Shown in pieces: positions 45,121 to 46,118 of a stretch of 46,118 bases of DNA. The notes beneath the pieces are model-generated. The model was given only the letters and a program-made list of their open reading frames with translations. It ran no database searches and was not told the DNA's origin. This DNA comes from Clostridia bacterium. GTDB taxonomy: Bacteria > Bacillota > Clostridia > Oscillospirales > CAG-272. How positions within the stretch are numbered: position 1 is the stretch's first letter; the number at the start of each line of letters is the position of its first letter. Where the stretch lies: the NCBI GenBank assembly GCA_017540175.1, contig JAFYBN010000073.1:1-46118 (forward strand), given 5' to 3'. The position numbers and the translations under genes were made by a program.

Positions 45121-45350
45121 GAAAGGGCAACAGGCAAACCCGATCCGACATCACGGCGGACGAACGCGCGATCGAAAACACCGGGCGTCGAAATCATGAA
45201 CGGTCCGTCAAGGTCTGACGGAGCCGCGGCAGACCGCGAAAGCGCTCGGCATCACGGCGCCGTTCTCCGGAAAAGCGCTCAAATATGTTACGGAAGATAA
45301 ACGTTCCCGAAAAAATATATTCCCGTCAGAACGGGAGGTGGGAAAAAACA

Positions 45351-46118
45351 ATGTTGAAACGCATCGCATCGCTCATCATCGCGGCGCTGTTCATTCTGCC
45401 GCTTATCCCGACGGCGGCGTCCGCTATGCAGATATCCGTTAAACTGACGGTCGCGGACGGCGCCGGGCAGACGGTCACGCTGGACGTCGAACCGTCCGAT
45501 TCGATCGACGCCGTCAAAGCGAAGATACAGGATAAAGAGGGCTGCCCCCCGGACCGGCAGCGGCTGTATTGGGGCAGCGCGCTTTTAGAGGACGGTAAAA
45601 CCCTTGCGGAATACGGTATTCAAAATGAAAGCACGCTGTATCTGATCGTTCCGCCCGCAGATTCCTTCACCGTTATTATGCTTCCGGGCGAAAGCGAGGG
45701 CGAGCCGATCACGTACACCTGTCCTTTTGACGAGTATGAGGATCTGCCGACCTGGGCCGGAACCCTGCAGTTTTATAAAGACAAGAACAATCTGGCCAAC
45801 TTCAATCTGGACGCCGATTACTGCCCCGACAGCTTCATTCCTCAGGAGAACTATCTGTTTGACGGCTGGGAAGGGCTCAAAGACCTCCACCATATCATAA
45901 AGGACAGGCCGGTGACCGTCACCGCGAAATGGAAGCTCGACCGGCTCCGCGCGTACGGTCCGATAGAAAAGATCCCGGCGGCGGACGGCGGGAATATCTA
46001 TCTCGGCGGGATCCGCTGGCGCGTGATCGGAGAGAAAGATCAGACGCGGCTCCTCGTTTCCTCGGACGTGCTGGGAGACCGGCTGACCTTTGACGAAGCG
46101 GAAGCGTACCGCGACAGG
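45351..46118 (+). CDS. Secreted protein with eukaryotic-type ubiquitin domain (3' end missing)
   Basis: The frame is open from ATG 45351 (GGGAGGTGG upstream) to the window edge, 256 codons. Residues 1-25 are a signal peptide ending TAASA, so cleavage would expose MQISVK, the ubiquitin N-terminus. Residues 26-100 align to ubiquitin 1-71 with a 4-residue loop insertion; I count 44 identical positions, including [25 protein letters not shown] and ESTL. Lys6, 27, 29 and 33 remain; Lys11, 48 and 63 are Gln, Ala and Asn; Ile44 is Tyr. LRLRGG is replaced by VPPADS, so conjugation is not possible. Residues ~105-195 resemble a Listeria-Bacteroides (InlB B-type) repeat (YLFDGWEG...VTVTAKW), and from ~205 a DUF6273-like domain begins ([15 protein letters not shown]). 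The 45121-45350 gap before it holds no supported gene. Confidence 0.85.

Follow-up and report, generated by a model that had tools for sequence, protein, structure and literature searches.

A tail-less ubiquitin domain at the predicted mature end of a putatively secreted Clostridia protein, and the wider bacterial group that shares its layout

Introduction

Why should a bacterial gene carry a near-eukaryotic ubiquitin directly behind an export signal, and what could such a domain do outside the cell without a conjugation tail? The question is raised by a gene at the end of the window, by which we mean the whole stretch of 46,118 nucleotides analysed here, from a Clostridia bacterium. Bacteroides fragilis was termed one of few species with a near-eukaryotic ubiquitin in passages of a 2017 paper (PMC5705921). 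As described in parts of two papers (PMC3352274, PMC5705921), its protein BfUbb is secreted, has its signal-peptide cleavage aligned with ubiquitin residue 1, lacks the tail glycines and is identical to human ubiquitin at 48 of 76 positions; the synthetic mature protein inhibits strains. Passages of the 2017 paper also report that Globodera rostochiensis secretes ubiquitin with a signal peptide and a C-terminal peptide of 12 residues, which is removed by cleavage (PMC5705921). That ubiquitin is exported in the same way as the window protein would be, but it is eukaryotic and carries the C-terminal peptide. Apart from BfUbb and the papers citing it, bacterial proteins with a signal peptide followed by ubiquitin were not described in the literature records considered, which formed part of broad search results; a secreted bacterial ubiquitin is not named in the passages considered of PMC11354881, and the word 'ubiquitin' is absent from the main text of PMC4300822.

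Results

A ubiquitin domain at the predicted mature N-terminus

The gene and its surroundings at the 3' end of the window, together with a candidate continuation on a second contig of the same genome (C66), contain the following features.

45203..45286, + strand: 3' remnant of an ImmA-type metalloprotease gene, 28 residues (tblastn with the intact ImmA of relative L013: residues 108-135, 68% identity, E 4.5e-9)
45333..45339, + strand: likely ribosome-binding site GGGAGGT, 11 bases 5' of the ATG (sequence reading)
45351..45425, + strand: predicted signal peptide (hydrophobic core, alanines at -1 and -3, a layout common to 69 of 80 genome loci, the best 80 of 284)
45426..45656, + strand: ubiquitin domain, tail-less, its first hairpin longer by 4 residues (PF00240 profile, fold)
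45657..45940, + strand: weak InlB B-repeat-like (Flg_new type) region, boundary approximate (sub-cut-off profiles)
45941..46118, + strand: start of a DUF6273-like region, ending at the contig end
G000:C66:20082-22046, - strand: candidate later part of the protein, a 655-residue frame with 73% identity to residues 363-1016 of the L016 body

The window gene has a signal-peptide-like N-terminus, and its predicted mature end is a ubiquitin domain without a conjugation tail. The PF00240 profile scored 67.4 bits on this domain against a curated cut-off of 25.4, and the domain has the ubiquitin fold; profile and fold together confirmed the first-pass annotation, which had read the head as ubiquitin proper. 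It is identical to human ubiquitin at 45 of 73 positions. The same annotation had placed the end of an export signal exactly before ubiquitin Met1. As a prediction from the alanines at -1 and -3 this holds, with cleavage after ASA, between Ala25 and Met26, directly before ubiquitin residue 1. The domain alignment likewise supports the proposed loss of the conjugation tail and the canonical binding patch: Ile44, Lys48, Lys63, His68 and RLRGG are all lost and the first hairpin is altered. The domain has no C-terminal LRLRGG; it ends in LIVPP and runs on into the body. Upstream, ACGGGAGGT precedes the start in the relatives L017 and L018 too.

These features bear on whether the protein could belong to a bacterial ubiquitin-like conjugation system. 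The fold alone would favour such a role, which we consider extremely improbable, given that the glycine tail is absent and an export signal is present. A search for E2 enzymes (PF00179) gave 0 matches in this genome, and the control genomes also gave no match.

A large body with a recurring C-terminal domain

The open frame continues for 180 residues beyond the ubiquitin domain, up to the contig end. The downstream InlB B-type and DUF6273-like domains proposed earlier appeared in the window only as weak or sub-cut-off matches, and were over cut-off in some relatives. On the window part, Flg_new_2 gave E 0.25 (11.8 bits against a cut-off of 23.6) and List_Bact_rpt E 0.037. TIGR02543 reached 21.7 bits for a whole protein against a cut-off of 20.95, scoring best over residues 167-198 of the relative L013, and Flg_new_2 repeats were over cut-off in the full-length relatives L012 and L013. 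DUF6273 gave E 0.18 in L016 and E 3.2e-12 in L009, a more distant ubiquitin-headed protein.

To follow the body past the contig end we used that of L016 as query, which, besides the window, gave one match in the same genome. It lies on C66, a contig of 22047 bases, begins at the very end of that contig and runs inward, and we take this frame as the leading candidate for the 3' portion that the window gene lacks. About 208 residues between the window part and the C66 part are unsequenced. The body search scored 2 candidates per genome, so that its counts are lower bounds, and further copies in the window's own genome are possible because only 2 of 29 first-look candidates were scored there. Two close relatives are open frames of 1121 and 1177 aa. 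Taken from these relatives and the C66 part, the body comprises about 1000 residues, with repeat-like and Ig-like domains.

The first-pass annotation had proposed a large surface protein and a search for an anchor past position 46118. The size stands; no anchor was found. Read directly, the C66 frame ends in LYRYYAAANAYMQDPNG followed by a stop codon, and by eye this C-terminus shows neither an LPXTG motif nor a hydrophobic tail. The scan for repeat profiles in the C66 part covered its last 319 residues. Its last 300 residues form a domain that is found again in further proteins of the window's bacterial family (L109-L123) and that, outside the window clade, ends within 8 residues of the stop in 12 of the 13 fetched loci, the exception being L027 with 173 residues more. 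A model of this domain (pLDDT 87) has two Ig-like sandwiches, with helices after each. Its fold matches were weak, and the members share no Pfam family, the best family matching no more than 2 of 15. Surface proteins with InlB B-repeats or Flg_new repeats resemble L012 and L013 in their repeats; the window protein differs in its ubiquitin head and in a C-terminal double Ig-like domain where a known anchor would stand.

A wider group with the same layout

We scanned 84,980 named species genomes; of 437 pattern matches, 284 were confirmed as relatives, and the best 80 by similarity to the window domain were retained. We classified 97 ORFs from these 80 genome loci and 9 viral loci, and 77 of them had a signal-peptide-like segment directly before ubiquitin. 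The segment was present in 69 of the 80 genome loci, 68 of them with the -1/-3 site exactly before residue 1, and in 4 of the 9 viral loci. Over the 77 ORFs, which include near-copies (three identical viral ones), the cleavage rule fitted at offset 0 in 76; within the bodies of these proteins it fitted at 17% of positions. The segment was called by our own hydropathy rule rather than a trained predictor, and the cleavage rule was counted afterwards. The remaining 20 ORFs, without the segment, comprised polyubiquitin (L037, L096, L098), an Actinomycetota type, and short or truncated frames. The bodies across the group are highly varied (GLUG, Ig-like, X25, beta-helix, SdrD_B, IPTL-CTERM). Because 69 of the 80 loci have the same layout, the window protein belongs, in diverged form, to a group of secreted ubiquitins in bacteria and is not a single fresh capture.

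Carriers of the segment include the isolates Ruminococcus albus 8, R. albus KH2T6, Lachnospira multipara, two Cohnella, Saccharibacillus endophyticus, Pedobacter cryoconitis, Paracidovorax valerianellae and others. Several isolate contigs are long (Cohnella sp. OV330 1.03 Mb, Pedobacter cryoconitis 0.59 Mb, Ruminococcus albus 8 0.11 Mb). In R. albus 7 the gene lies on the complete plasmid pRUMAL01, annotated as a ubiquitin family protein (WP_013483628.1) and surrounded by small proteins with signal-peptide-like starts. WP_013483628.1 is like the window protein in having a signal peptide, then ubiquitin without RGG, and then, by eye, a bacterial extracellular-type domain; it differs in a head far closer to human ubiquitin and a total length of 246 aa. 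PF00240 was found in 7 of 295 genomes of the window's bacterial family and in 7 of 391 of its class, 5 of the latter over cut-off, the window's own genome counted each time, and in 0 of the 8 congeners listed.

These loci also bear on whether the group could reflect independent recent captures from eukaryotes, or eukaryotic contigs contaminating metagenome bins. Several matches do lie on short contigs of metagenome-assembled genomes, and a few either encode polyubiquitin (L037, L096, L098) or start without a signal peptide. We nevertheless hold this explanation to be highly improbable: isolates on long contigs and the complete plasmid pRUMAL01 carry the genes, and the window domain shares its reading frame with a bacterial signal peptide and a bacterial body and has nucleotide relatives in three other genomes.

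The scan yielded several further observations. Another type of bacterial ubiquitin starts without a signal peptide and continues into a conserved domain of some 150 residues, the first of which read GVVTY (L043:6235-7699, L046:6162-7282, L048:6764-8387, L060:6536-7696, L086:6251-7687; two tandem genes in 4 of 5), on contigs labelled Actinomycetota, Acidimicrobiales or Bifidobacterium breve, the last of which we judged mislabelled. Pedobacter cryoconitis has four tandem signal-peptide/ubiquitin genes of about 100 residues each with almost nothing beyond ubiquitin (L092:6183-7588), and a rumen Clostridia bin has two signal-peptide/ubiquitin genes side by side (L058:6902-8043). An IPTL-CTERM sorting signal over cut-off ends such proteins at L067:6881-7333, L081:6914-7345 and L100:2313-2768, and L101 and L102 resemble them by eye. 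On pRUMAL01 (L134:1953-8273) the ubiquitin gene is one of a row of genes for small proteins; by eye, these have one extracellular domain in common, and the same stretch has a PI-PLC-domain gene and a dockerin gene. Distant ubiquitin-like stretches occur in Ig-like or tandem-95 repeat proteins of Pseudoalteromonas plasmids (NZ_CP077771.1:864532-864708, CP076682.1:832935-833108), and two congeneric genomes each have a weak sub-cut-off PF00240 match in a frame of 709 residues (G495:C1:2548540-2548674, G536:C20:224896-225030).

The surface is mostly conserved and the tail is not

Compared with human ubiquitin, the 77 domains ranged from 53 to 99% in identity, with a median of 89%. RGG was kept in 4 of the 77, and a glycine aligned with residue 76 in 7. 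Leu8 was kept in 61, Ile44 in 65, Lys48 in 63, Lys63 in 71, His68 in 69 and Val70 in 57. Our search patterns were taken from ubiquitin positions near 25-32 and 56-64, and conservation there, Lys63 included, is therefore partly built in; positions 8, 44, 48, 68 and 70 fall outside the pattern stretches, where the conservation holds best. One alignment row (L034) was trimmed 13 residues late because its match began there. For 2701 pairs of 74 domains (three of the window's clade left out), the median silent difference was 0.875 and the median replacement difference 0.118. From the residue counts and these pair differences we conclude that the surface is mostly conserved, that the tail is not, and that, measured by silent change, the copies are of long standing. 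A protein that was conserved beforehand and was captured several times would fit the pattern as well.

The simplest cause of conservation in the wider group is a partner that reads the ubiquitin surface. One such arrangement would be a decoy or adhesin outside the cell, aimed at the deubiquitinases or eukaryotic ubiquitin-binding proteins of the host or of rumen protists or fungi, with the lost tail making it uncleavable. That the protein is conserved while silent sites are largely saturated speaks for a partner of this kind, and the wider group mostly keeps the binding patch and loses the tail. For the window protein we regard the decoy or adhesin as unlikely, as the window domain itself is changed at Ile44, Lys48, His68 and the first hairpin; several carriers, moreover, bear the names of groups that we take to be free-living or aquatic, which counts against it.

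The window's clade has relaxed constraint and exchanged parts

The window protein forms a clade with L016, L017 and L018, spanning two genera of one family. Three of the four members are bins from sheep or goat omasum, which places the closest known relatives of the window bacterium in ruminant stomachs. The window and L016 differ little at silent sites (pS 0.037 for the head and 0.040 for 231 codons), and per site their replacement differences are at least as frequent (pN 0.058 and 0.071, respectively). The scarcity of silent differences points to a recent transfer between genera. The excess of dN over dS within the clade was non-significant (p 0.74 for the head, p 0.14 over 231 codons), and relaxed constraint therefore fits as well as retargeting.

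A comparison with other pairs of low divergence showed a clear shift. The window and L016 heads differ by 10 replacement and 2 silent differences, against sums of 19.5 and 53.5 for seven other pairs (Fisher p 3e-4), these having been picked afterwards as the ten pairs with pS < 0.3 minus three pairs of identical viral copies. The same comparison with L017 replacing L016 gave p 0.004. Private sites were distributed very differently along the gene: for the head and the next segment they numbered 44 and 1 in L018 and 9 and 45 in L017 (p 6e-18), and in the signal peptide 21 in L017 and 3 in L018 (p 4e-9 against the head). Because these distributions differ by segment, we conclude that signal peptide, head and body were exchanged as cassettes. 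The clade deviates from the group, with the patch lost, constraint relaxed and parts recombined between genomes.

Could the head then be an inert structural cap or spacer, a small stable fold drifting freely in the window clade? The relaxed constraint there and the very varied bodies are in keeping with this idea. A mere spacer, however, would hardly be expected to give median differences of 0.118 for replacement and 0.875 for silent sites, nor to keep residue 1 at the predicted cleavage site in nearly every ORF, and it strikes us as quite improbable.

A prophage end in two relatives

At nucleotide level, positions 45201-46118 of the window match L013 and positions 45156-46118 match L011. In L013 a repressor (phrog_8) and an ImmA metalloprotease (phrog_87) precede the ubiquitin gene, whose ATG lies 3 bases past the ImmA stop; the intact ImmA matched the phrog_87 metallo-protease with E 2.6e-21. 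On the opposite strand follow a terminase (TerL), portal and capsid, then an internal virion protein, a tail fibre and an endolysin. L011/L017 likewise have repressor, ImmA, terminase, portal and capsid, at 85-90% nucleotide identity. The ubiquitin gene thus stands at a prophage end in L013/L135 and in L011, in two genomes of one genus only. At the window's own locus the ImmA remnant is alone of the prophage genes; its 28 residues are all that is left of the ImmA gene. With tblastn, ImmA found no match better than E 2.2 in L012. Among 50,697 phage records there were 0 matches to a conserved domain of the group at E 1e-5.

For this lineage, the gene is likely prophage cargo. It could instead be a host gene beside which the phage inserted. 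The gene on its other side in L013 is one that we take to encode a surface protein with SLH-like repeats; it matches PHROGs only C-terminally, to a function-unassigned family (E 2e-12) and to a major tail protein (E 2e-11).

Discussion

The window gene most likely encodes a horizontally moved secreted protein with a captured ubiquitin as non-covalent binding head. From established knowledge, a eukaryotic origin of the group is likely. Our tree neither proves nor dates it, because it rests on 75 columns and has one starred branch and a single eukaryotic row.

The head would stand at the free end of a protein that is secreted or held at the surface, and may bind a ligand there non-covalently. 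Members of the wider group would use their retained Ile44 patch to engage proteins that recognise ubiquitin. For the window clade, where the patch is gone, constraint is relaxed and heads have been swapped, the head has probably been retargeted; the new partner would be another extracellular one, most likely on neighbouring microbes. By analogy with BfUbb, competition with such neighbours would best fit the mosaic exchange and the phage link in this clade. We see about an even chance that the best overall explanation, a ligand-binding ubiquitin head retargeted in the window clade, on a prophage-carried factor that acts in conversion or competition much as BfUbb does, is correct. BfUbb and the window protein are alike in signal-peptide register, in tail loss and in their similar identity to human ubiquitin. 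Against the explanation, BfUbb is a lone domain of 76 residues, whereas the window protein is large, at about 1100 residues, with a 4-residue hairpin insert and a mosaic, prophage-linked clade.

Ubiquitin outside conjugation was told as a B. fragilis curiosity in passages of the 2017 paper (PMC5705921); it now appears as a recurring exported head, with 284 confirmed stretches in 84,980 genomes and, in the best 80 of these that were examined, the tail removed and the surface mostly conserved. We tentatively suggest, at rather less than even confidence, that these proteins form a so far unrecognised extracellular class across many phyla, in which a free N-terminal ubiquitin head without tail, strongly selected for its eukaryote-like surface and spread by plasmids and prophages, serves as a general recognition or competition module, and that in the window clade the head has escaped this selection, been exchanged and been retargeted. 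Ubiquitin as an extracellular binding module thereby becomes a testable question, for which the window clade, where the surface was let go, is a natural experiment.
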